A stretch of 14,844 bases of DNA from Anaerolineales bacterium (lineage in GTDB: Bacteria > Chloroflexota > Anaerolineae > Anaerolineales > Villigracilaceae), in contig WGAD01000152.1 in NCBI GenBank assembly GCA_015489255.1, positions 1 to 14,844 on the forward strand, written 5' to 3'. Each line of letters begins with the position of its first letter. Position 1 is the stretch's first letter. This document shows, piece after piece, positions 2-12,461 of the stretch. The notes beneath the pieces were generated by a model. It worked only from the letters and a program-made list of their open reading frames with translations. It made no database searches and was not told the DNA's origin. The translations under genes were made by a program, and so were the position numbers.

Positions 2-1606
2 CCCGTGGATGTACAGATCGGCGCTGGCGGCGAGGCCTGCGCTTTGTTGCTGCCGGCGGAGGGGGAGGAAACGCGCCTGTACCGTTTGCAGCTGGCCTGC
101 CTCGCGCCCGATGGTCGCCAGCGCTGGCAAGATTTTCCATGGCGTTTGAAAATACCGCGCGGGGCGGCCTTTCGCTGGCAGGACGAAGCGGTGCGCTTCT
201 GGTGGCTGGATGGCGACCGGCTGTTCACATCGTTGGCCGGTGCAGAGGGCGAAGAGATCGAACCGCCTCGCCCTCTGCTGGATGAACGGCCGGTGGAATA
301 TTTCCTGGTCTTCGAAGACGCGCTTTTGGCCTCCGGCAGCAAACGACAGCCGGGCGTTTATGTCCAGGATGAAAGAGGCGAGGTGCGAACCCTGGCAGAA
401 GACGGCGTGTGGCTGCGGGCTGCGCGAGATGCCCAGGGGAACTGGCACCTGGCCTGGGTGACGTACCCCCTGGGGTATGGCGACTCGGCGTTGTATTACG
501 CCGTCCGCCCCGCTGCGGCGGGGTGGGACGCGGTCTCCATCCGCAAGGTCACCGATCTGCCTCTGGGTTTGAACACCCGCCTGAACAGCTTGACGCTGGG
601 GGTGGACGACACGCACGTCACCATTTTGTGGACAACCAGCATCGTTGCCGGCCTGGAGGCCGGGACAGTGACTTCCCATTATGCTAGCGCGCCTCTGGAG
701 AGCGGTCTCTTTGCCTCTCCGCAAGTGTTGACAGCGCCCATAGGCTACGACTTGCCTTTTCAACAGCCTGGGGAAAGCTTCTTGCAAACCGGGCGCCGCC
801 AGGATTTGCAGGCTGCGCCTTTTGCCCCGGCGGAGGCGCTGGACGATTTGATGGCGCTGAATGGCGCTTACGACGAGCTGGCGCTGGCTTATCGGGCTTC
901 CATGCTGCACCAATGGCGCAAGCAACGCTGGCAGGTGAATGTGCTCTATCTGGACGCCGGGCAGCCACGCTGGGCGCAGCCCTTGAGCTTTACACCTTCT
1001 TATTCGCTCAAGCCGCGTTTGCAGGCGGATGAAGATGGCTTTTTGTACCTGGCCTGGCTGGAAAAGGTGGCGCCTTATAACTACAGCGTGTATTTTGCCA
1101 GCACCCAGCCGGATATCGTCGCTGCGCAAAACGCGCTCACCTGGAGCGAACGCGGCGCTATCTTGCTGCAAGTGATCTTTGGCTTGCTGGTGGGGGCTTT
1201 GCTGGCGCCCCTGGCTGCCTCGGTGTGGATGCTGGCGCCGCTTTTCATTTATTTGCTGGTCAATGCGCTTCGTCGCTGGCTGCCGTCGTCCTGGGAACGC
1301 AATTGGGAATATCTCAGCCTGGGGCTGGCGCTGCTGGCTTTTTGGTCGGCCAAACATGCCACCCTGCCCGCCATGTTCACCTACATCCCCTTTTCTGCCT
1401 GGGTGCCCGGCATCCCGGCATGGCTGGGGACGGCGCTGCGCTTTGGCGTGCCCTTGCTCATTCTGGGGCTGTCTTTGTGGGCCGGCTGGCATTATACTTA
1501 CCGCAAACAAAACCGGGCTGGGTTATACTTTTTGATGATCTACATTGCTGTGGATGCCCTGTTGAGCATGGCGGTCTATGCCGTGATGATCTATGGGGTA
1601 TTTTGA
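2..1606 (+). CDS. Membrane-anchored propeller-like protein, unknown function (5'-partial)
   Basis: The frame is open to the left edge with no stop, so the gene probably starts upstream. The first start-like codon is GTG at 5 and no ribosome site is visible; residue numbers count from that GTG. Residues ~1-375 are a soluble, beta-rich region. Two segments of the type D-x-x-G-x-x-x-L-A-W (near residues 142 and 342), each followed by a Tyr-rich strand, resemble blades of sialidase-like beta-propellers. From residue ~384 to the end there are four or five hydrophobic helices separated by basic loops. A large extracytoplasmic sensor or binding domain anchored by C-terminal helices fits best. I do not recognise the family. 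The stop is 26 nt before the S41 protease gene, so the two are probably cotranscribed. Coding status is well supported; function is open. Confidence 0.75.
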   Translation, partial: PVDVQIGAGGEACALLLPAEGEETRLYRLQLACLAPDGRQRWQDFPWRLKIPRGAAFRWQDEAVRFWWLDGDRLFTSLAGAEGEEIEPPRPLLDERPVEYFLVFEDALLASGSKRQPGVYVQDERGEVRTLAEDGVWLRAARDAQGNWHLAWVTYPLGYGDSALYYAVRPAAAGWDAVSIRKVTDLPLGLNTRLNSLTLGVDDTHVTILWTTSIVAGLEAGTVTSHYASAPLESGLFASPQVLTAPIGYDLPFQQPGESFLQTGRRQDLQAAPFAPAEALDDLMALNGAYDELALAYRASMLHQWRKQRWQVNVLYLDAGQPRWAQPLSFTPSYSLKPRLQADEDGFLYLAWLEKVAPYNYSVYFASTQPDIVAAQNALTWSERGAILLQVIFGLLVGALLAPLAASVWMLAPLFIYLLVNALRRWLPSSWERNWEYLSLGLALLAFWSAKHATLPAMFTYIPFSAWVPGIPAWLGTALRFGVPLLILGLSLWAGWHYTYRKQNRAGLYFLMIYIAVDALLSMAVYAVMIYGVF

Positions 1607-1632
1607 ACCCTTTTGCCACAAGGAGAGAAGAG

Positions 1633-3039
1633 ATGCGTAAAAACTGGTTGTTTGCCCTGCTGATCCTGGGCCTGGCGCTGTCCGCCTGCAATGCGGCTGC
1701 GCCGACCCCCGAACCGGCGTCTCCGACCGCGCCGCCCGAACCCTCGGCGACGCCCACGCCCCTGCCGCCGACCGCTACGGCGACGGCGACCAAATCCGGG
1801 CCTACCGGCCCGCTGGCGACGGCAATGGCCTTGCAAAACCAGGTCACCCTGTCTGCGCCGACGGCACAGGTGATCGCAGCGGATGATTATGTCGGCATCT
1901 TTGAACAGGCCTGGCGGATTGTTAAGGAAAACTACGTGCGCGATAACTACAACGGCGTGGATTGGGATGCCGTCTATGAAGAATACCTGCCGCGCGCCGA
2001 AGCGATCCAGACAGATGAAGAACTGGACAAATTGCTGACCGACCTGATCCGCGAATTGGGCGATGACCACAGCCGTTATGTGCCCAAAAACCGCTTCGGC
2101 AACGAATTTGGCGTGGGCGAGAGCAGCGGCGGCTCACCGGTCACGGGTATCGATTTCCACTATTGGCCGGCCCGCGAAGATGAATATCTGTACGTCTGGT
2201 ATGTGTGCGAGGTCAGCCCGGCGGCTCAGGCTGGCATTCAGCGCGGCGATGTCATTTTGGCGATCAACGGCCAGGAAGTGCGCCGCGTGGGGCCGGGAGA
2301 GTTCGAGCCGGCTTACTGGCGGGCAGCCTACGGCTACGGCGATGCAACCGTGACCGTAACGGTGCAATCTGGCCCCACGGAAGAACCCCGCGATGTGGAA
2401 CTGGCGCTCAGTGGGGTGGCCGGTTGTGACGATTGGCGCTGGTATCTGGTTAGCGAATCGCCGCGCATCGGCTACATTCGGGTGCCAAACTTCGACGGCA
2501 ATGCGGCCTCCTTGATTATGGAAGCCCTGCGCGACCTGGAAGCCGACGCCCCCCTCGAAGGCCTCATTGTGGACGTGCGCCACAACCCGGGCGGCAACTC
2601 GGACGACGCCATGTCCATCTTCGCCGAGGGAACCATTGGCACGATGGGACCCCTGCGCGAAGACGCCACCCGCACGATTTACCGCATCCGCGGGCCGGTT
2701 GAATGGAACGACAGCACGCCGATGGCTGTTCTGACCGACGGCGCCAGCCATAGCGCGGCGGAATACTTCGCCATCGGCTTGCAGGTGTTGGGCCGGGCGA
2801 CCATTGTGGGCGAAAACACGGCTGGCAACACCGAGGGCATCAACAGCTTCAACCTGGCGAATGGCACTGTCATCCGCCTGGCTATCACCACCATTCTGTT
2901 GCCGGATGGTTCGTCTATCGAAGGGGTAGGCGTCACGCCCGATATTCGCGTCCCGCTGGGGATGTGGGGGCTGGCGCAGCGGCCCTACGATGTGCAATTG
3001 CAAGCGGCCATCGATCACCTGCTGACGCAAATTCCCTGA
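1633..3039 (+). CDS. S41-family (C-terminal processing/tricorn-type) protease, lipoprotein
   Basis: This 468-aa protein starts at ATG 1633 behind an AAGGAGAG ribosome site; the open frame reaching further upstream lies inside the preceding gene. A signal peptide ends in lipobox L-S-A-C (Cys19), so it should be lipid-anchored outside the membrane. A Thr/Pro/Ala linker follows (~20-60). Then come a helical S41 N-terminal domain (~84-160, with G-D-D-H-S-R-Y), a PDZ domain (~165-255, with S-P-A-A-Q-A-G-I-Q-R-G-D) and the S41 catalytic core (~275-450). V-D-V-R-x-N-P-G-G sits at 313-321 and the nucleophile Ser at 374 in H-S-A-A-E. The position 25 residues later, Lys in CtpA/Tsp enzymes, is Asn399 (T-A-G-N). 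The active site is therefore of tricorn/IRBP type, or activity is altered. Likely substrates are extracytoplasmic peptides or misfolded proteins. Family assignment is firm; substrate is unknown. Confidence 0.93.
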   Translation: MRKNWLFALLILGLALSACNAAAPTPEPASPTAPPEPSATPTPLPPTATATATKSGPTGPLATAMALQNQVTLSAPTAQVIAADDYVGIFEQAWRIVKENYVRDNYNGVDWDAVYEEYLPRAEAIQTDEELDKLLTDLIRELGDDHSRYVPKNRFGNEFGVGESSGGSPVTGIDFHYWPAREDEYLYVWYVCEVSPAAQAGIQRGDVILAINGQEVRRVGPGEFEPAYWRAAYGYGDATVTVTVQSGPTEEPRDVELALSGVAGCDDWRWYLVSESPRIGYIRVPNFDGNAASLIMEALRDLEADAPLEGLIVDVRHNPGGNSDDAMSIFAEGTIGTMGPLREDATRTIYRIRGPVEWNDSTPMAVLTDGASHSAAEYFAIGLQVLGRATIVGENTAGNTEGINSFNLANGTVIRLAITTILLPDGSSIEGVGVTPDIRVPLGMWGLAQRPYDVQLQAAIDHLLTQIP

Positions 3040-3143: not shown

Positions 3144-5084
3144 ATGCGTCGTCTCATCTGGTTGTTACCTTTGCTGGGGGCGCTGCTGCTGGCGGCTTGC
3201 GGCCCACAGAATGCCGCCCCGGCAACGAAAACCCTTCCTCCAACGGCACCCTCCCCGGCGGCAACCATGCTCCCGGCAGCAGAAACCTCCACCCCGCTTC
3301 CGCAACCCCAGACGCTGACCATCTGCCTGGGGAGCGAACCGGCAACGCTGTTCCCGCCCCAGGCGACCGACCGCGTGGCGCGCACGGTGTTGGCCGCCGT
3401 TTACGATGGGCCGTTGGAACACGAAGGGTTTTCCTGGCAGCCCACCATCCTGGAGACCCTGCCCTCGTTGGAAAACGGCGCCGTGACCATTGAGCGCGTG
3501 CCCGTTCAGGTGGGCGACGAAGTCATCGGCGCGGATGGGCGTCCCGTCACCCTGGATGATGGCGTCCTCGTCCGCCCGGCCGGGTGCCGCGAGGCCGCCT
3601 GCGCCGTCGCCTTCGACCGCGAGCAACCCCTGGAAATGGAACAAATGCAGGTCGTGTTTCGCTTGCGCGCAGGGTTGCGCTGGGCGGATGGCGCCCCGTT
3701 GACGGCGGCGGATTCGGTGTACGCCTGGTCCTTGCGCGCCTCTCCCGCCATTTCCGCCGACCTCTACCTGCCCGACCGCACAGCAGATTACCGCCAGCTG
3801 GATGAACGGACGGTTGTCTGGGTAGGCAAACCCGGCTTCATCGACCCACAATATGAAGACAACTTTGCCTCGCCCCTGCCCGCACACCTGTGGGCCGAAA
3901 TGGAACCGCAGGCGCTGGCGGACAGCGAACAGGCGGCCCGCAGGCCGCTGGGATGGGGCGCTTATGTGGTGGACGAATGGATCCCCGGGGAGCGTATCGT
4001 TTTGCAGAGAAACCCTATCTACGCCGGAGAAGCGCCCTTCTTCGCCACCCTGGTGTTTCGCTTCACGCCAGACCCAAACCAGGCGATCGCCGATCTCCTG
4101 GATGGACAATGCGATCTCCTGGATGAAAGCATCCCGCTCGCCGGGCAACTGGACCTCCTGCAAGAAATGGAGGCCGATGGTCGCCTGCGTTTGCGCGCGC
4201 GCACCGCGCTGACGATGGAAGTGTTGGCGCTGGGCATTCGCCCCGCTGCCTACGACGATGGATACCAGCCCGGCCCCTTTGGCGACCGCCCCGACTACTT
4301 CGGCGATGTGCGTGTGCGTCAGGCCCTGGCCTATTGCCTGGACCGGCAGCGGGCTGCGGAGGCCGTTTGGGGCGGGCTGACCTATGTGCCCGATACTCTG
4401 GTTCCGCCCTCCTCTCCGTTTTACGACCCGGCAACGCCGACCTATCCCTACGATCCGCAGAAAGGCCGGGAACTGCTGGATGCCGCCGGCTGGAAAGACC
4501 TGGACGGCGACCCCTCCACCCCGTTGACGGCCTGGTCGGCGGTTGGCGTGCCCCAGGGGACCCCTCTGACACTGCAATACTGGACGACCGACACCGCTTT
4601 TCGCCGCCAGACAGCGGCGGTGTTCGCCGAATCTCTGGCTGCCTGCGGCATTGGCCTGGAAATCAACTTGCTGCCGCCGGAAGAACTCTTTGCCGATGGC
4701 CCGGAAGGCGTGATCTTTGGCCGCCGCTTCGACCTGGCAGAATTTGCCCTGGGGACGCTGGAAGGACCGCCGCCGTGCTACTGGTACGAACAAGAATCCA
4801 TCCCGACGATCGAGAACAATTGGCTGGGCGTGAACGTCTCCGGCTACGCCAGCGATACCTATGATGCGGCTTGCCGTCAGGCTTTGACCCTCTTGCCAGA
4901 CGATGAACGCGCCCTGGATGCCTGGGCACGCGTGCAGCAATTGTTGGCCCGCGATCTGCCGGTCATCCCGCTTCATGCGCGCGTGTACCTTTCAGCCAGC
5001 CGTGCAGACCTGTGCGGCGATTTTCCGCAAGATGGATTCGCCATGCTCACAGAGCGCATTGAAAGCTGGCGCCTGTGCCCATGA
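3144..5084 (+). CDS. ABC transporter substrate-binding lipoprotein, family 5 (peptide/oligosaccharide), canonical order
   Basis: A 646-aa family-5 solute-binding protein (SBP_bac_5/DppA-OppA type). ATG 3144 follows GAAAGGAGAA; the upstream open frame lies across a terminator and was rejected. Lipobox L-A-A-C puts the lipidated Cys at 19, then a Thr/Pro linker to ~55. Family landmarks appear in normal order: W-A-D-G-x-P-L-T-A-A-D (180), G-W-G-A-Y-V with R-N-P-I-Y (270-290), L-L-D-G-Q-C-D-L-L-D (~318) and D-V-R-V-R-Q-A-L-A-Y (388). Before the first landmark is an insert of about 50 residues with a C-x4-C pair, which I do not recognise as a domain. The extra Cys residues late in the protein could form disulfides. 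It may feed the importer encoded downstream or another transporter; substrate cannot be read. A terminator lies just upstream, and I saw no clear promoter in the 59-nt gap. Confidence 0.93.
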   Translation: MRRLIWLLPLLGALLLAACGPQNAAPATKTLPPTAPSPAATMLPAAETSTPLPQPQTLTICLGSEPATLFPPQATDRVARTVLAAVYDGPLEHEGFSWQPTILETLPSLENGAVTIERVPVQVGDEVIGADGRPVTLDDGVLVRPAGCREAACAVAFDREQPLEMEQMQVVFRLRAGLRWADGAPLTAADSVYAWSLRASPAISADLYLPDRTADYRQLDERTVVWVGKPGFIDPQYEDNFASPLPAHLWAEMEPQALADSEQAARRPLGWGAYVVDEWIPGERIVLQRNPIYAGEAPFFATLVFRFTPDPNQAIADLLDGQCDLLDESIPLAGQLDLLQEMEADGRLRLRARTALTMEVLALGIRPAAYDDGYQPGPFGDRPDYFGDVRVRQALAYCLDRQRAAEAVWGGLTYVPDTLVPPSSPFYDPATPTYPYDPQKGRELLDAAGWKDLDGDPSTPLTAWSAVGVPQGTPLTLQYWTTDTAFRRQTAAVFAESLAACGIGLEINLLPPEELFADGPEGVIFGRRFDLAEFALGTLEGPPPCYWYEQESIPTIENNWLGVNVSGYASDTYDAACRQALTLLPDDERALDAWARVQQLLARDLPVIPLHARVYLSASRADLCGDFPQDGFAMLTERIESWRLCP

Positions 5085-5327: not shown

Positions 5328-7907
5328 ATGTTGCGCAAACGCTTGTTCTTTGTCTTTGCGCTGGTGCTCATTGCGAGCATGGTGCTGGCGGCCTGCGGTC
5401 CGACGACCGAGGCGCCTGCTACTGAAGCGCCGGCGACGGAAGCCCCCGCTACGGAAGCGCCGGCGACCGAAGCCCCCGCCACCGAAGAGCCGACGCCGGA
5501 ACCGACGCCGGAACCCACCAATCGCGTGGGCGGCTGGCTCGACAGCATTACGATGGTGGTAGCCTCCACCGATTCGGTGATCACCCAGCTGGAAGCGGGC
5601 GAGATCGATATCTACGCCTCCACCCTGGGCCGCGCCGAAGACTTCAAGGCCGCGCAAGAAGCGGGCCTGAAGACGGCTGCTTCCTTTGGCGGGTATTATG
5701 AACTCACCTTCAACCCTGCCGGCCCCGAATTCACCGATGGCCGCCTGAACCCCTTCGCTAACCCGAAGATCCGCGAAGCCATGAACTGGCTCGTCGATCG
5801 CGATTACATCGTGCAAGAGATCTACGGCGGTCTGGCGAAACCCAAATTCCTGCCGATCACCGGCGCCTTCCCCGACTACGCCAAGTACATTGACGTCGTC
5901 CGCGAACTGGAAAACAAATACGCCTACAATCCTGAGAAGGCCGCCGAAGTCATCAACGCCGAAATGGAAGCCATGGGCGCGGTGAAAGATGCCGACGGCA
6001 AATGGACCTACAACGGCGAACCCGTCACCATCATCTTCCTCATCCGCAACGATGGCGATGGCACCCGCAAGCCGATTGGCGACTACGTTTCCAATCAGCT
6101 GGAAGACCTGGGCTTCACCGTCGATCGCCAATACAAGACCTCCTCTGAAGCGGCGCCCATCTGGATCTTCAGCGACCCCGCCGAAGGCCAGTGGCACATG
6201 TACACCGGCGGCTGGATCACCACCGCGGTGAGCCGCGACCAGGGCGGCAACTTCTTGTTCTTCTACTCGCCGAACAGCGCTTACGGCTTCACCCCGTTGT
6301 GGGGCGCTTATCAGCCCAGCGAAGATTTCGAAAATGTGGCCCAGGCTCTGGACCGCAACACCTTCGCCTCGTTGGAAGAACGCGCCGACCTCTTCAAGAC
6401 GGCTCTGCGCCTGGCGATGGAAGACTCGGCCCGCGTCTGGCTGGTTGACCAGCAGGCTTTTGCTCCCTACCGCTCCGAGGTTGAAGTGACCGCGGATCTG
6501 GCGGGCGGCGTCCAGGGCGCGCAGCTCTGGCCCTTCACCCTGCGCTTCTCCGGTCAGGAAGGCGGAGACATGAAGTGGGCCATGTCCGACTTGCTGGTGG
6601 AACCGTGGAACCCGGTGGCTGGCTCCAACTGGGTGTACGACACGGCGGCGATCCGCGCCACCAACGACGCCGGCTTCATGAGCGATCCCTTCACCGGTCT
6701 GGCCTGGCCGCAGCGCGCCGAGCGCGCCGAGGTCTTCGTCCAGAACGGCCTGCCCGTGGGCAAGACCCTCGACTGGGTGAGCCTGGAATTCGTGGATGAA
6801 ATCCAGGTTCCGGAAGATGCCTGGGTGGATTGGGATGCTGAAAATCAGGTCTTCGTCACCGCTGGCGAAATGTACCCCGATGGCCTGACCGCCCTGCGCA
6901 AGAGCGTGGTGTACTACCCCGCCGATTTCTGGGACACCGTCAAGTGGCACGATGGCAGCCCGATGACCCCGGCTGACGTCATCATGTCCCTCATCATGAC
7001 CTTCGACCCGGGCAAAGAAGCCTCCGCGATTTATGACGAGGCTCAAGCCGGCAACCTGGAAGTCTTCCTGTCCACCTTCAAGGGCTTCCGCATTGTTTCG
7101 TGGGATCCCTTCGTGGCGGAATACTACTCCGATTCCTACGGCCTGGACGCCGAAGCCAACGTGGTTTCCTTCTGGCCGTCCTACAGCCAGGGCGATGCCA
7201 AGTGGGATGCGATCGCCATCGGTAACATGGCCGAAGCCAACGGCGAACTGGCCTGGTCGGCTGACAAAGCCGAAGCCAACGAGGTGGAGCAGATCTCCTT
7301 CATCGGCGGCCCGAGCCTGGAAATCTTGACCAAGTACCTGGATCAGGCGATCGCTGATTCCTACATCCCCTACGAACCCACCCTGGGTCAGTACATCACG
7401 GCTGAAGAAGCGGCTGCCCGCTACCAGAACCTGAAGAGCTTCTACGAAGCCCATGGTCACTTCTGGGTTGGCACTGGTCCGTACATCCTCGACAAGGTCT
7501 ACACGACGGAAAAGACCCTCACCCTGGTTCACAATCCGGACTACCCGGACAAAGCCGACAAGTGGGCGCGCTTTGCCACGCCGAAGATCGCCGAAGCCGA
7601 AATTGACGGCGCCGGCAACGTGGTGGCAGGTGCGGAAGCCTCCTTTGACGTCTACGTGACCTTCGATGGCGCCGCCTACCCGGCGGACGAGATCGAAAGC
7701 GTCAAATACCTGGTCTTCAACGCCGAAGGCGCCCTGGCGGCTTCTGGCGATGCGGAACTGGTGGCTGATGGCCAGTATGTCATCAACCTCTCCGCCGACC
7801 AGACCGGCGCTTTGACCGAAGGCGCGAGCAAGATCGAAGTGGTGGTGGTCTCCAAACTGGTGTCCATCCCGACGATCGTCGACTTTGAGTTCGTTGCCAC
7901 CAAGTAA
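5328..7907 (+). CDS. ABC importer substrate-binding lipoprotein with rotated (circularly permuted) family-5 domain
   Basis: This 859-aa lipoprotein has lipobox L-A-A-C (Cys23), five A-P-A-T-E repeats (29-53) and a P-T-P-E linker. Its family-5 landmarks are out of order. L-E-A-G-E-I-D-I (88-95) and N-P-K-I-R-E-A-M-N-W-L-V-D-R (145-158), normally in the C-terminal half, come first. The motifs of the N-terminal half follow: a first-strand-like segment (414 onward), W-H-D-G-S-P-M-T-P-A-D (540-550) and V-G-T-G-P-Y-I-L plus H-N-P-D-Y (714-735). The last ~90 residues (~771-859) look like an Ig/FN3-type beta domain. Every part of one family-5 domain seems present once, so this is a rotation rather than a duplication. 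The gene leads an operon with permeases and ATPases, supporting a role as that importer's receptor. Peptides or oligosaccharides are the family's usual ligands. A shorter-linker fusion of two half-proteins is the alternative. Confidence 0.92.
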   Translation: MLRKRLFFVFALVLIASMVLAACGPTTEAPATEAPATEAPATEAPATEAPATEEPTPEPTPEPTNRVGGWLDSITMVVASTDSVITQLEAGEIDIYASTLGRAEDFKAAQEAGLKTAASFGGYYELTFNPAGPEFTDGRLNPFANPKIREAMNWLVDRDYIVQEIYGGLAKPKFLPITGAFPDYAKYIDVVRELENKYAYNPEKAAEVINAEMEAMGAVKDADGKWTYNGEPVTIIFLIRNDGDGTRKPIGDYVSNQLEDLGFTVDRQYKTSSEAAPIWIFSDPAEGQWHMYTGGWITTAVSRDQGGNFLFFYSPNSAYGFTPLWGAYQPSEDFENVAQALDRNTFASLEERADLFKTALRLAMEDSARVWLVDQQAFAPYRSEVEVTADLAGGVQGAQLWPFTLRFSGQEGGDMKWAMSDLLVEPWNPVAGSNWVYDTAAIRATNDAGFMSDPFTGLAWPQRAERAEVFVQNGLPVGKTLDWVSLEFVDEIQVPEDAWVDWDAENQVFVTAGEMYPDGLTALRKSVVYYPADFWDTVKWHDGSPMTPADVIMSLIMTFDPGKEASAIYDEAQAGNLEVFLSTFKGFRIVSWDPFVAEYYSDSYGLDAEANVVSFWPSYSQGDAKWDAIAIGNMAEANGELAWSADKAEANEVEQISFIGGPSLEILTKYLDQAIADSYIPYEPTLGQYITAEEAAARYQNLKSFYEAHGHFWVGTGPYILDKVYTTEKTLTLVHNPDYPDKADKWARFATPKIAEAEIDGAGNVVAGAEASFDVYVTFDGAAYPADEIESVKYLVFNAEGALAASGDAELVADGQYVINLSADQTGALTEGASKIEVVVVSKLVSIPTIVDFEFVATK
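5412..5486 (+). repeat. Five tandem 15-bp units encoding A-P-A-T-E in the lipoprotein linker
   Basis: Five in-frame 15-bp units run without interruption. Units 2 to 5 alternate between GCGCCGGCGACSGAA and GCCCCCGCYACSGAA (S = C/G, Y = C/T), giving a 30-bp superperiod that suggests expansion by slippage or unequal exchange. The encoded linker would space the receptor from the membrane, and its length may vary between strains. Confidence 0.85.
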
Positions 7908-7927: not shown

Positions 7928-7955
7928 AGGTAGGGGCAGTTTCCTGCCCCTACCT
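7928..7955 (+). terminator. Intercistronic hairpin between SBP and permease genes (likely partial terminator)
   Basis: A perfect 12-bp stem (AGGTAGGGGCAG / CTGCCCCTACCT) with a TTTC loop lies 20 nt after the SBP stop and is followed by a T-rich stretch (GATTTCATTTTATC). No promoter is evident between it and the permease gene 29 nt downstream, so read-through is expected. Such hairpins typically keep receptor mRNA more abundant than permease and ATPase mRNA. Confidence 0.75.
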
Positions 7956-7984
7956 GATTTCATTTTATCTGGGTGACCAAACCA

Positions 7985-9109
7985 ATGACCGAAAACCTGC
8001 CAGAACAGACCCCAAAGCAAAAACGTTCGGCCTCTACCAGCACCTTTTCGCGGGTGCTCAAATATTCGGGCGTGCGCCTGGTGACGCTGTTCATTACCAT
8101 TGTAATTGGCGTCTACCTGACGATCTTGATCGCGAACATGGGGGGCTATGTTGACCAGATCATGCGTAGCGAAATTCGTGAGCGTGTTACGCTGGCGGTT
8201 ACGCAAGATCCGGCCAACCGCGACATCTCGCCAGAACAGCGCAACAAATTGGTGGAAGAAAAAGTGCGCCTGGAAGAAAAACGCCTTGGCCTGGATCGGC
8301 CGTTCCTGGTGCGCAGCGTCAACTATTTGAAAAACGCCATGATGCTGCAACTGGGGCGCGCCCAAAACATGACCAGCGACAGCGGCTCCAAGCAAGTCCG
8401 CCTGATCATCCTGGAGCGCCTGCCACCGACCCTGCTCTTGATGGGCACATCGAACCTGATTTTGTTCTTCACCAGCATTTTCATCGCCCTGGCTTTGTCG
8501 CGTCGTTATGGCAGCTGGATAGACCGGATGGTGGTGGCTTTGTCGCCGACCTCCTCGGCGCCATCCTGGTTCTATGGCATTTTCTTCATCTTGATCTTTG
8601 CGGCTACTTTGCGCGTGTTGCCCTTCGGAGGCATGGTCGATGCGCCACCGCCGGAGAACCGCTTGGCCTATGTCTTGAGCGTGCTCAAACACCTCATCTT
8701 GCCGGCAGGGTCATTGATCATCTCATCGTTCTTTTTGAGCGTGTACAACTGGCGCACGTTCTTCTTGATCTATTCCAGCGAAGATTATGTGGAAATGGCC
8801 AAGGCCAAGGGCCTTTCTTCGCGCGACATCGAACGCCGCTATATCTTGCGCCCAACCTTGCCAACGATTGTGACCAGCTTCGCCTTGATGATCATCGGCC
8901 TGTGGACAGGAGCCATCATCACAGAGACGATTTTCAACTGGCCTGGCTTGGGGCGCACAATTTTCCGCGCCATCGGCCTGTACGATACGCCGGTCATCGT
9001 CGGCACAACCATCATCTACGCGTACCTGCTGGCGATCACCGTCTTTTTGTTGGATTTCATCTACGCGCTGGTTGACCCGCGCGTCAAAGTGGGTGGTGCA
9101 CAATCATGA
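7985..9109 (+). CDS. ABC importer inner-membrane permease, DppB/OppB type
   Basis: I chose ATG 7985 (374 aa) because GGTGA (7972-7976) lies 8 nt before it. GTG 7973 is in frame but has no ribosome site and would add four residues. A polar N-terminus is followed by TM1 and a charged extracytoplasmic segment ending in R-L-G-L-D-R-P, a DppB family hallmark, then several more helices. The ATPase-contacting EAA loop is clear: D-Y-V-E-M-A-K-A-K-G-L (267-277). It is followed by the family's E-T-I-F-N-W-P-G-L-G and by V-D-P-R near the end. With its partner permease it forms the transmembrane channel. The protein is somewhat longer than typical DppB (~340 aa), mainly in the N-terminus and first loop. 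Its stop overlaps the next start (ATGA), indicating translational coupling. Substrate is unknown. Confidence 0.93.
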   Translation: MTENLPEQTPKQKRSASTSTFSRVLKYSGVRLVTLFITIVIGVYLTILIANMGGYVDQIMRSEIRERVTLAVTQDPANRDISPEQRNKLVEEKVRLEEKRLGLDRPFLVRSVNYLKNAMMLQLGRAQNMTSDSGSKQVRLIILERLPPTLLLMGTSNLILFFTSIFIALALSRRYGSWIDRMVVALSPTSSAPSWFYGIFFILIFAATLRVLPFGGMVDAPPPENRLAYVLSVLKHLILPAGSLIISSFFLSVYNWRTFFLIYSSEDYVEMAKAKGLSSRDIERRYILRPTLPTIVTSFALMIIGLWTGAIITETIFNWPGLGRTIFRAIGLYDTPVIVGTTIIYAYLLAITVFLLDFIYALVDPRVKVGGAQS

Positions 9110-10452
9110 ACCGGTTGCGAAACCTTTTCAAGGAACTGAAACGCTACCCCTCGGCCGTCTTTGGGCTGGTGATCATCACCGCCCTGTTTGCCGTGGCCGT
9201 GTACGCTATCGTCAGCATTCCCTATGAGCAGGCCATTTACCTGTGGCGCGGCGGGGAGCAAGTCTGGTATCAGAACCCGAAGAACGCAGCTCCTGTCTGG
9301 TTCAACTGGTTTTCCAGCACGAAGCGTCCCGAAACGCTCATCCTCGACAGCCGCGCTGGCGATGCTGTCCGCGAAGTGACAGAACGGGAAACCGGTCGCA
9401 ACATCACACTGACCTTTACCTTTGATTACGCCTACGACGATTTCCCCCAGGAACTCATCCTCTACTACCACAACACCTATGAGGCGAAGGAACCCTTTGC
9501 CACGGTGTACTTCTACACCCCCGATGGCCGCGAAATTCGCGTGGCAAGCATGGGGGTGGCGCACGAGCAGAGCTTCCGCTTTTCGCAGGCCGACAAACTC
9601 AAACGCCGCCTGGGGACGGAATTCATCATCGAAGGCTTGTTTGCCGATCCGAACTCCGACCCGGAAGACCCCGCCCCGTTGAAGGGTCAGTACCAGGTGG
9701 TGATTGAAGGCGTTACCTTTGAAAAAGAAGCCGACATCCAGGCCGAACTGGTGATGCACGGCACCCTGGCTGGCTGGGCCGGCACCGATCACCTGCGCCG
9801 CGACCTGACGGTCGCCCTCCTCTGGGGGACGCCGGTGGCCCTGCTCTTCGGCCTGCTGGCCTCGTTTGGCACCAGCGTGTTGACCATGATCATCGCGGCG
9901 ATCGGCGTCTGGTTTGGCGGCTGGGTGGATGAACTCATCCAGCGCATCACGGAGATCAACCTGGTGCTGCCCTTCCTGTCCATCCTGATCATGGTGGGGA
10001 CGTTTTATTCGCGCAGCATCTGGGTGATCTTGGGTGTGACGATTCTGCTCAGCATTTTCACTGGCGGCATCAAGAGCTACCGCGCCATCTTCTTGCAGAT
10101 CAAAGAATCGACCTACATCGAGGCCGCACGAGCCTATGGCGCCACCGACGCCCGCATTATCTTCCGTTACCTGATCCCGCGCATCATCCCGTTGCTCATC
10201 CCGGGGCTGGTCTCCGGCATCCCCTCTTTCGTCTTCCTCGAGGCTTCGCTGGCTGTGCTCGGCCTGGGCGATCCGGTGCTGCCGACCTGGGGCAAGATCA
10301 TCAACGACGCCCAGTCGCAGGGTGCGCTGTACAACGGCTACTACTATTGGATCCTGGAACCGGCCGTATTGTTGATCATCACCGGTTTTGCGTTTGCCAT
10401 GCTTGGCTTCGCGCTTGACCGCATCTTCAATCCGCGTTTGAGAGAGTTATAG
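9106..10452 (+). CDS. ABC importer permease, DppC/OppC type, with large extracytoplasmic insertion
   Basis: At 448 aa this is about 150 residues longer than usual DppC proteins (~300). TM1 is at ~14-38. Residues ~40-222 are mostly polar and beta-prone, and lie between TM1 and the conserved core, which begins at G-T-D-x-x-x-R-D (226-233). The first R of that motif (residue 231) replaces the usual Gly of G-T-D-x-x-G-R-D. The EAA loop is intact (Y-I-E-A-A-R-A-Y-G-A, 337-346), as are the F-L-E-A-S-L-A-V-L-G-L-G segment and the terminal F-N-P-R-L-R. The insertion should face the receptor side of the membrane and may help dock the unusual SBP; that is inference. It is translationally coupled to the DppB-type gene, and the ATPase gene starts 2 nt after its stop. 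Confidence 0.92.
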   Translation: MNRLRNLFKELKRYPSAVFGLVIITALFAVAVYAIVSIPYEQAIYLWRGGEQVWYQNPKNAAPVWFNWFSSTKRPETLILDSRAGDAVREVTERETGRNITLTFTFDYAYDDFPQELILYYHNTYEAKEPFATVYFYTPDGREIRVASMGVAHEQSFRFSQADKLKRRLGTEFIIEGLFADPNSDPEDPAPLKGQYQVVIEGVTFEKEADIQAELVMHGTLAGWAGTDHLRRDLTVALLWGTPVALLFGLLASFGTSVLTMIIAAIGVWFGGWVDELIQRITEINLVLPFLSILIMVGTFYSRSIWVILGVTILLSIFTGGIKSYRAIFLQIKESTYIEAARAYGATDARIIFRYLIPRIIPLLIPGLVSGIPSFVFLEASLAVLGLGDPVLPTWGKIINDAQSQGALYNGYYYWILEPAVLLIITGFAFAMLGFALDRIFNPRLREL

Positions 10453-10454
10453 TC

Positions 10455-11411
10455 ATGGCTGAAACCAAGTTGTTGCAAGTCCGAGACTTGAAGTTGTATT
10501 TCCGCACCACGCGCGGACCGGTGCAGGCGGTAGATGGCGTGGATTTTGAACTCGACAGTAACCGCGCTGTGGTCATCCTGGGCGAATCGGGCTGTGGAAA
10601 GAGCTCCATGGCCAAGGCGCTCTTGCGTCTCTTGCCCCGCAACGCAGATGTTTACGAGGGGCAGGTGATGTTCGACGGCGTGGACGTCATGCAGTATGAC
10701 GATGAGACCTTCCGCAAAAAGGTCCGCTGGGTGGGGATGTCTATGGTGCCGCAGGCGGCGATGAACGCTCTCAACCCGGTGCTCCGCGTGGGCGATCAGG
10801 TTGCAGAACCGGCGATGATCCACCTGGGCCTGTCCAAAGACGAGGCCTTGCGCCTGGCGGCAGCCAAATTCGAGGACGTGGGGGTTCCGGTGGACTTTTT
10901 GCACCGCTACCCCTTTGAACTCTCCGGCGGGATGCGGCAGCGCGTGGCTATTGCGATGGCCCTGGTAACCTCCCCCAACCTGATCATCCTGGATGAGCCA
11001 ACCTCCGCCCTGGACGTTCTCACCCAGGCCAACATTTTCAACGTGCTCAAGCGCATCAAGAAGCACCTGGGCGTCAGCTTCATCCTCATCACGCACGATA
11101 TCGCTACCTCAAGCGAATTGGCGGACGAGGTAGCGGTGATGTACGCCGGGCAAATCGTCGAAACCAGCGATGCCCACCGCTTCTTCACCGGCCCGTTGCA
11201 CCCCTATTCGCAAAAGCTGATGGCCAGCGTGCCACGTTTGAAACAGATCAAAGAGCCGGAGTTCATTACCGGGCAGCCGCCCAGCTTGTTGAACCCGCCG
11301 ACGGGCTGCCGCTTTGCGAATCGTTGCAGTGAGCGTTTCGCAAAATGCGACCAAATGCCGCCCGTCTTCGAAAGAGATGGCCGCAAGGTCCGCTGCTGGT
11401 TGTATGAATAA
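10455..11411 (+). CDS. ABC importer ATPase, DppD/OppD type, with C-terminal four-Cys module
   Basis: A 318-aa cytoplasmic ATPase with all nucleotide-site motifs: Walker A G-E-S-G-C-G-K-S-S (43-51), Q-loop M-V-P-Q, signature L-S-G-G-M-R-Q-R (156-163), Walker B L-I-I-L-D-E-P (176-182) and switch His214. The C-terminal oligopeptide-transporter module ends in four Cys (285, 291, 298, 314), spaced as in family members reported to bind a [4Fe-4S] cluster. It should pair with the following ATPase as a heterodimer contacting the EAA loops of both permeases. ATG 10455 lies 2 nt after the permease stop; the weak GAGAG upstream suggests expression relies partly on coupling. Function as an importer ATPase is firm; substrate is not. 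Confidence 0.95.
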   Translation: MAETKLLQVRDLKLYFRTTRGPVQAVDGVDFELDSNRAVVILGESGCGKSSMAKALLRLLPRNADVYEGQVMFDGVDVMQYDDETFRKKVRWVGMSMVPQAAMNALNPVLRVGDQVAEPAMIHLGLSKDEALRLAAAKFEDVGVPVDFLHRYPFELSGGMRQRVAIAMALVTSPNLIILDEPTSALDVLTQANIFNVLKRIKKHLGVSFILITHDIATSSELADEVAVMYAGQIVETSDAHRFFTGPLHPYSQKLMASVPRLKQIKEPEFITGQPPSLLNPPTGCRFANRCSERFAKCDQMPPVFERDGRKVRCWLYE

Positions 11412-11423
11412 GAGGAGCGAAGC

Positions 11424-12461
11424 ATGACTGTGCAAACGAAAACGGAAAACCCCGCCCCCCAGGCGGCCGGTAGAGAGGCTCCCCTGCTTTCAATTCGCAA
11501 TTTGCGGGTTTGGTTTGAACTGCGTAAATTCGGGTTCGGCCATGCCGGTTATGTGCGGGCGGTCGATGGCGTAACTTTCGATGTCGCAGCTGGCGAAGCG
11601 ATCGCCGTGGTGGGCGAATCGGGGTGCGGCAAATCGAGCCTGATGAAGACCATCTTGGCGCTTTATAAACCGACAGAAGGCGAGATCCTCTTCAACGGTA
11701 CCAATGTGGGCGCTCTGGATCGCAAGGGCTTGCGCTGGTACCATGCGCGTGTGGGCTATGTCCAGCAAGACCCGTATGGCGCTCTGGCGCCTTTCATGAG
11801 CATCCGCCAGATCCTGGAAGAGCCGCTGATCGTCAATGGCGTGCGCGACAAGCAAGAACGCCTCGAGCGTGTGTTGCAGGCCATGGAGGAAGTCAAACTG
11901 ACCCCCCAGGAAGACTTCCTGAACAAGTTCCCGCACATGCTCAGCGGCGGCCAGCAGCAGCGGGTTGTCATTGCCCGCGCCATGATCATGGACCCTGAAT
12001 TCCTGGTGGCCGATGAACCGGTGTCCATGCTCGATGCCTCGGTGCGCGTCGAAATCTTAAAACTCTTGCGCGGCTTGCAGGAACGGCACAACCTTTCGGT
12101 GATTTACATCACGCACGACCTTTCGACCGTGAGTTACTTCTCGGAGCGCATCTTTGTGATGTATGCCGGCAACCTGGTGGAAAAGGCCTCAGTCCGCGAA
12201 CTGCTGGACAACCCTCTGCACCCCTATACCCTGGCCTTGCTGGCGGCGACCTCCGACCCGGATGCGGAAAACGCCTCCCGCTTCCGCGATGTGCCGCCGG
12301 GAGAGCCGCCCAGCCTGGTCAACCCGCCGGCTGGCTGCCGTTTCCATCCGCGTTGCAGCAAGCGTATCGACGGCGTGTGCGACGTGGACGTGCCGCCGGA
12401 CTTTGAACCAGTCCCCGGGCACCAGGTCGCCTGCTGGCTCTATCGCGATGATGAGGGCTAA
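11424..12461 (+). CDS. ABC importer ATPase, DppF/OppF type, with C-terminal four-Cys module
   Basis: A 345-aa partner ATPase starting at ATG 11424 behind GAGGAG, 12 nt after the preceding stop. Nucleotide-site motifs are complete: Walker A G-E-S-G-C-G-K-S-S (64-72), Q-loop V-Q-Q-D-P-Y-G-A-L, signature L-S-G-G-Q-Q-Q-R (173-180), Walker B F-L-V-A-D-E-P (193-199) and switch His231. The C-terminal oligopeptide module contains Cys305, 311, 319 and 337, parallel to the DppD-type partner, so both subunits may carry an Fe-S cluster. The first ~20 residues are polar with no recognised motif. Its 3' end overlaps the start of a small membrane-protein gene. Both ATPase sites look catalytically competent. 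Confidence 0.95.
   Translation: MTVQTKTENPAPQAAGREAPLLSIRNLRVWFELRKFGFGHAGYVRAVDGVTFDVAAGEAIAVVGESGCGKSSLMKTILALYKPTEGEILFNGTNVGALDRKGLRWYHARVGYVQQDPYGALAPFMSIRQILEEPLIVNGVRDKQERLERVLQAMEEVKLTPQEDFLNKFPHMLSGGQQQRVVIARAMIMDPEFLVADEPVSMLDASVRVEILKLLRGLQERHNLSVIYITHDLSTVSYFSERIFVMYAGNLVEKASVRELLDNPLHPYTLALLAATSDPDAENASRFRDVPPGEPPSLVNPPAGCRFHPRCSKRIDGVCDVDVPPDFEPVPGHQVACWLYRDDEG

Follow-up and report, generated by a model that had tools for sequence, protein, structure and literature searches.

A probable circularly permuted family-5 substrate-binding protein in a Dpp-type operon of an Anaerolineales bacterium

A family-5 receptor with its halves exchanged

The window analysed here covers positions 1-14,844 of contig WGAD01000152.1 of an Anaerolineales bacterium, in which an open reading frame (ORF) at 5328-7907 encodes an 859-residue substrate-binding protein (SBP) and is followed by dppB, dppC, dppD and dppF genes, the last ending at 12461. 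An earlier note on this DNA had read motifs of the C-terminal half of the family-5 fold (LEAGEIDI at residue 88, NPKIREAMN at 145) ahead of those of the N-terminal half (WHDGSP at 540, GTGPY at 715), which raises the question of whether the chain of this receptor is circularly permuted. All four motifs are present at these sites, with HNPDY at 735, and in the upstream neighbour (3144-5084) the equivalents run in the normal order: WADGAP at 180, GWGAY at 270, LLDGQCD at 318 and VRVRQAL at 389 (388 in the note). From sequence comparison we consider it very probable that the receptor is a lipid-anchored family-5 (DppA/OppA, cluster C) SBP whose chain is circularly permuted within the usual flytrap fold. 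Its parts, and the protein used for comparison, are as follows.

5328-5396, forward strand: signal peptide with lipobox (LAAC, Cys23), read from the sequence
5397-5522, forward strand: Thr/Glu/Ala/Pro-rich tether with a 15/30-base tandem repeat (tandem repeats at 5400-5515)
5523-6560, forward strand: C-terminal half of the family-5 fold, first in the chain (residues 66-411; ends approximate)
6561-7577, forward strand: N-terminal half of the family-5 fold, second in the chain (residues 412-750; ends approximate)
7578-7904, forward strand: extra C-terminal domain (residues 751-859), apparently all-beta and immunoglobulin (Ig)-like
3144-5084, forward strand: canonical-order family-5 SBP, the comparison protein directly upstream (SBP_bac_5 18-327, one block)

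Against the Pfam profile SBP_bac_5 (PF00496), the only Pfam family matched by the receptor at E<=0.001, the whole protein scored 119.5 bits (curated cut-off 32.4; E 2.4e-34) in two stretches, the better of which placed residues 71-311 on profile positions 148-360. When the halves were scanned separately, residues 1-411 matched profile 148-360 (E 1.9e-26) and residues 411-859 matched profile 26-148 (E 1.2e-8, 34.9 bits); profile 148-360 thus precedes 26-148 in the chain, and the co-linear match that the earlier note had named as fatal to the idea did not occur. A genome-wide scan with SBP_bac_5 again returned two swapped blocks at this gene, and the SBP_bac_5 matches listed for 31 related genomes each formed one block in forward profile order.

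The exchange was confirmed against the sequence of a solved structure. PDB 7fi3, the best solved chain, which we assigned to Thermococcus kodakarensis OppA (TkOppA) by the UniRef name of relative P0241, aligned at positions 97-296 with receptor residues 530-730 and at 313-584 with residues 62-314. For the Geoglobus relative P0263 the correspondence was nearly complete (430-722 on 3-303, 177 bits; 18-428 on 307-722, 319 bits; E 1e-145), and a single residue separates its two blocks, which is what a joining of the former termini predicts. In E. coli DppA coordinates the chain of the receptor opens roughly at mature residues 204-206 (about 205, assuming a 28-residue signal), following the stretch DGYWGTKP; the DppA loop near residue 205 belongs to lobe I.

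The order is a property of the family. A first protein search with the receptor as query found 3340 proteins at E<=1e-3 among 8000 candidates scored, and a second with a Dehalogenimonas member found 2021 among 7998; the best 120 of each were analysed, and domain order was called with hidden Markov models (HMMs) of the C-half, N-half and terminal domain built from the receptor alignment A1. The C-half came first in 120/120 and 120/120. The first set comprised 116 proteins of order C-N-Ig and 4 with a split N-half, the extra C-terminal domain being found in all 120; the second comprised 100 C-N-Ig, 17 C-N and 3 with a split N-half.

Some points weigh against a permuted flytrap. At 34.9 bits the N-half match is by itself weak, barely exceeding the cut-off (32.4). 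The site of the cut is known only approximately, and the half boundaries come from our own HMM coordinates, so that their agreement is partly by construction. The fold of the permuted members is a prediction from primary structure, and canonical TkOppA is only 21-23% identical to the receptor and 23-28% to the Dehalogenimonas member. The weak N-half match would also suit two unrelated or separate domains that merely resemble family-5 halves without forming one permuted fold; we judge this very unlikely and rejected it on the mapping onto 7fi3, which the halves of the Geoglobus member together span almost end to end with one residue between the blocks, the order being kept, moreover, in 240/240 best relatives (120 + 120). 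That assembly or gene calling joined pieces of two adjacent SBP genes, as a source genome in 401 contigs and a canonical SBP next door might suggest, can be dismissed on the strength of independent homologs: P0001 lies on 2 contigs, the same order recurs in 120/120 best relatives, and full-length matches occur in other genomes, one of them an isolate, and in one-contig genomes (G005, G112).

We therefore return to the permuted single fold. The ancestral N- and C-termini would have been fused around residues 411/412 and the chain opened at the loop near mature DppA residue 205, giving the layout signal peptide, Thr/Pro tether, C-half, N-half and extra C-terminal domain; tandem duplication followed by loss of the outer halves, as the earlier note proposed, is a plausible origin. 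The extra C-terminal domain reads as all-beta and Ig-like, a label that is our own reading of the sequence and was assigned by no program. A Pfam scan of it at E 1 gave no match, nor did its HMM match TkOppA or the canonical relatives.

Anchoring of the permuted receptors

The earlier note had also proposed that rotation would move the mature termini and the membrane tether to a different face of the protein. A tether at new ends is implied by the order, but the family anchors by either terminus. Cys23 is unvarying across the 66 rows of alignment A1, and over residues 3-65 the leader and tether of the receptor share 76% identity with the leader of G000:C22, a canonical SBP of the same genome. 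The lipobox pattern occurred in 115/120 best relatives of the first search and in 11/120 of the second. A hydrophobic C-terminal end was present in 72/120 of the second list by a loose criterion that 30/120 of the first list also pass, probably via their last strand, and we discarded this count as a test of C-terminal anchoring. The two Geoglobus-type proteins scanned, P0263 and P0266, end in PGF-CTERM. The C-half starts shortly past the signal peptide at residue 31 in P0263, 40 in P0121, 38 in P0269 and 31 in P0270, a partial protein named Thermococcus sp. MV5 in which it follows the signal peptide directly. As both ends of the permuted chain would lie at one former loop, an N- or a C-terminal anchor would tether the same face.

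Distribution of the permuted family

Permuted relatives extend well beyond the Anaerolineae. The isolate Anaerolinea thermolimosa IMO-1 (L029) matches receptor residues 1-856, and source names in the second search include Dehalogenimonas (P0121, named Dehalogenimonas alkenigignens, has the permuted order), Dehalococcoidia, Nitrososphaerales and Thaumarchaeota metagenome-assembled genomes (MAGs). The Geoglobus relatives are permuted as well; P0266, named G. acetivorans (Archaeoglobi), comes from contigs of up to 1.86 Mb. Among 35 matches of a further protein search, 18 were N-C, 6 C-N, 1 C-N-Ig, 1 C-N-C, 7 C-half only and 2 neither. In GTDB r220, relatives are encoded at 399/404 pattern matches, of which the 80 best serve as the named loci; that of A. 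thermolimosa IMO-1 is among them, as is one record titled Clostridiales (L058). The receptor matched 38/400 Chloroflexota genomes at E<=1e-30 and the Dehalogenimonas permuted protein 36/400, at most two candidates per genome being scored in both searches. The permutation is old, with members named Anaerolineae/Caldilineae, Dehalococcoidia and archaea (Nitrososphaerales, Geoglobus) opening at about the same strand. At 38/400 sampled genomes such receptors are common enough to matter for annotation; the source names shown for them are "peptide/nickel transport system substrate-binding protein", "ABC transporter substrate-binding protein" or hypothetical. Three permuted SBPs of 953-967 residues (P0030, P0102, P0108) carry an additional insert of ~95-115 residues in the N-half, and P0260, assigned to a Chloroflexi MAG, is a Thermococcus-like OppA of canonical order that has the appearance of a binning contaminant. 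A plasmid search with TkOppA as query gave no match.

Comparison with known receptors

Natural permutation of a receptor of an ATP-binding cassette (ABC) importer is already known. TpMglB-2 (Tp0684) of Treponema pallidum is a naturally circularly permuted cluster B binding protein; its authors put forward "Type Ic/cluster Bc" as a class for it and suggest that permutation and tethering are linked (PMC4990184). It resembles the receptor in being a naturally permuted, tethered ABC-importer receptor that has kept flytrap function, but it has a Type I/cluster B sugar-binding fold with the first three N-lobe strands moved to the end (PMC4990184), a family to which the receptor does not belong. A family-5 permutation was not found in our literature search, most subscription papers lying outside its scope, and neither was a structure paper for TkOppA/7fi3.

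E. coli DppA/OppA and other SBP_bac_5 proteins share with the receptor both profile halves and the operon type SBP-B-C-D-F, and differ from it in the order of the halves; an export signal (here the lipobox) and a B-C-D-F operon are present as in those proteins. TkOppA belongs to the same superfamily, both of its halves match, and it has in common with the receptor NPFA..K.R.A, DGKWY.NGEPV and YT.GW; it differs in its canonical N-C order and in that its relatives carry CGP-CTERM names. The family offers a natural test of whether docking to the permease depends on where a flytrap receptor is tethered and on the order of its chain, with built-in comparisons in the canonical family-5 proteins of the same genomes and in a canonical-order solved relative.

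Has the chain been returned to canonical order?

The kinship with a canonical-order archaeal protein raises the question of how often the ring was opened. For the trees, both halves were arranged in one common order. In the C-half and concatenated trees a fully supported split divides the family from canonical SBPs, and in the C-half, N-half and concatenated trees alike the Thermococcales OppA, although canonical in order, fell within the permuted family. The grouping of Thermococcales with Geoglobus has support of 100/96 in the careful concatenated tree; in the N-half tree Geoglobus first joins P0272 (20%), and Thermococcales join that pair at 87%. P0272 is a metagenomic protein that begins in mid C-half (159-341), continues with the N-half and returns to the C-half (3-159) up to the corresponding point, beyond which comes a hydrophobic, anchor-like end. 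It may represent a third opening point or, as its contig of only 2443 bases and its want of a signal peptide make possible, a 5'-truncated tandem form.

Constraining the permuted members to be monophyletic gave p values of 3.4e-6, 1.0e-5, 0.016, 0.43, 0.111 and 0.011 in six tests, four of which reject the constraint. The set that yielded 0.43 was a reduced one with a close outgroup and neither Anaerolineae-type rows nor P0272, and the set that yielded 0.111 had a 21-row outgroup; the tested group was named after the first tree had been seen, and a long branch leads to the outgroup. The data thus favour, but do not establish, that the Thermococcales went back to canonical order, and the rooting controls weakened the firm claim of reversion that we had considered.

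Two histories are to be weighed. According to one, which we hold tentatively and with a little less than even confidence, the ring was opened repeatedly: first in an ancient permutation that Chloroflexota and archaea have in common, then in a return in the Thermococcales, of which 7fi3 would be the back-permuted product, and at a third point in P0272. According to the other, to which we give close to an even chance, there was one permutation, never undone: the canonical order of the Thermococcales OppA is the ancestral one, retained, and all permuted members belong to a single clade. This second history needs a single order change rather than two; neither the reduced set (0.43) nor the 21-row outgroup (0.11) rejects monophyly of the permuted members, and attraction between the distant outgroup and the long branch of the Anaerolineae type may be at work. 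It has to accommodate free trees that set Thermococcales beside the permuted Geoglobus (with P0272 in the N-half tree), inside the family, and the four rejecting tests. Were the Thermococcales reversion of the first history true, it would be a natural permutation undone.

The operon and an extra region of DppC

Permease and ATPase genes follow that of the receptor and make up with it a dedicated Dpp/Opp operon.

7973-9109, forward strand: DppB-type permease (PF00528, Opp4B/Opp2B models), which comes after the permuted SBP in the survey
9106-10452, forward strand: DppC-type permease (PF00528, Opp4C)
9226-9750, forward strand: extra region of DppC, ~150-180 residues between transmembrane segments TM1 and TM2, presumed extracellular (ends approximate)
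10455-11411, forward strand: DppD-type ATPase (PF00005 + PF08352)
11424-12461, forward strand: DppF-type ATPase (PF00005 + PF08352)

B-C-D-F lies directly 3' of the permuted SBP in 66/80 named loci. Nine of the other 14 end with the contig or the locus DNA and five do not: L038 has overlapping ORFs, L028 three permuted SBPs in a row and L021 a fused permease, while two speak against a dedicated transporter, L089 having only B and C beside the permuted SBP and L068 none of the four. Tandem permuted SBP genes were seen in L028 (three), L139 and L140; they are duplicates of the kind from which a permutation could arise. Of the 64 loci with >2.6 kb of upstream DNA, 18 have a canonical SBP no more than 1.5 kb upstream.

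The extra region of DppC is missing from 8/8 paralogous DppC in the alignment, and searches of PDB and Pfam with it gave no match. The solved DppC/OppC chains 8wd9, 8z21, 8z1v, 8z1y and 8j5q match the window DppC only from residue 210-224 onward, so that the insert is left out of the match. It is also carried by DppC of Dehalogenimonas-type operons (L135, L136, L137, L139), and each version retrieves the other (window against G039, E 2.3e-8; Dehalogenimonas against G000, E 6.1e-8). In the 400 genomes the window version detected it in 36, the Dehalogenimonas version in 30 and the two combined in 39, namely in 38/38 genomes with the permuted SBP and in one (G106) without a detected one (Fisher p 1.7e-52, a value that ignores shared descent). 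The co-occurrence is partly shared descent, and G106 itself tells against a strict pairing, its B-C-D-F operon with the insert (L152, 5568-9965) having no detected permuted SBP. G106 shares genus code g35 with the Dehalogenimonas match G039 and perhaps holds an orphan transporter. DppB-DppC fusions of ~875-980 residues carry the insert too (L021:11877-14558, L153:8270-10975, L154-L158). That in L021 has a permuted SBP upstream, and none of L153-L158 has an SBP within the fetched flanks, so the link holds at the level of the genome rather than always at that of the locus.

Proposed working and ligand

Most likely, the receptor, lipid-anchored by its long tether, captures its ligand between the lobes as an ordinary flytrap. 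The ligand would then be handed to DppBC, with DppDF powering transport. With the new ends, the extra C-terminal domain and the lipid tether would be neighbours on lobe I, and the extra extracellular domain of DppC may be their working partner there; this contact is our own hypothesis.

The transport role and the ligand, most likely an oligopeptide, are predictions, and as such count on the debit side. We favour a peptide because of the Opp/Dpp partners, the name of 7fi3 and the presence nearby, at 1630-3039, of a gene for an S41 peptidase whose leader is lipobox-like. Family-5 proteins have varied ligands, and the receptor falls far short of the NCBIfam equivalog cut-offs (54.1 against 650 bits for Opp4A, 21.2 against 393 for nickel_nikA); binding of a non-peptide ligand, such as sugar oligomers, nickel chelates or other family-5 ligands, is accordingly a substantial if minority possibility. 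Set against it are the same S41 peptidase gene, the permeases, whose top-scoring models Opp4B and Opp4C are named as oligopeptide permeases, the ATPases, which score best with Opp/Dpp models, and the closest solved relative, which is named a dipeptide/oligopeptide transport protein.

Other features of the window and its relatives

The first gene of the window (5-1606) had no Pfam match, and we dropped it as a conserved neighbour because no ORF in L015-L108 had it as best match at E 1e-8. One intergenic feature lies between receptor and permease.

7928-7955, forward strand: 12-bp hairpin, a terminator-like consensus match alone

Terminator-like sites numbered 3 against 3.3 expected by shuffling; the hairpin, standing before dppB, possibly sets unequal expression of receptor and permease. 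In L107 and L108, the Dehalogenimonas permuted SBP is adjoined by an ORF that combines repeat motifs of sialidase-like type with a hydrophobic C-terminal end.

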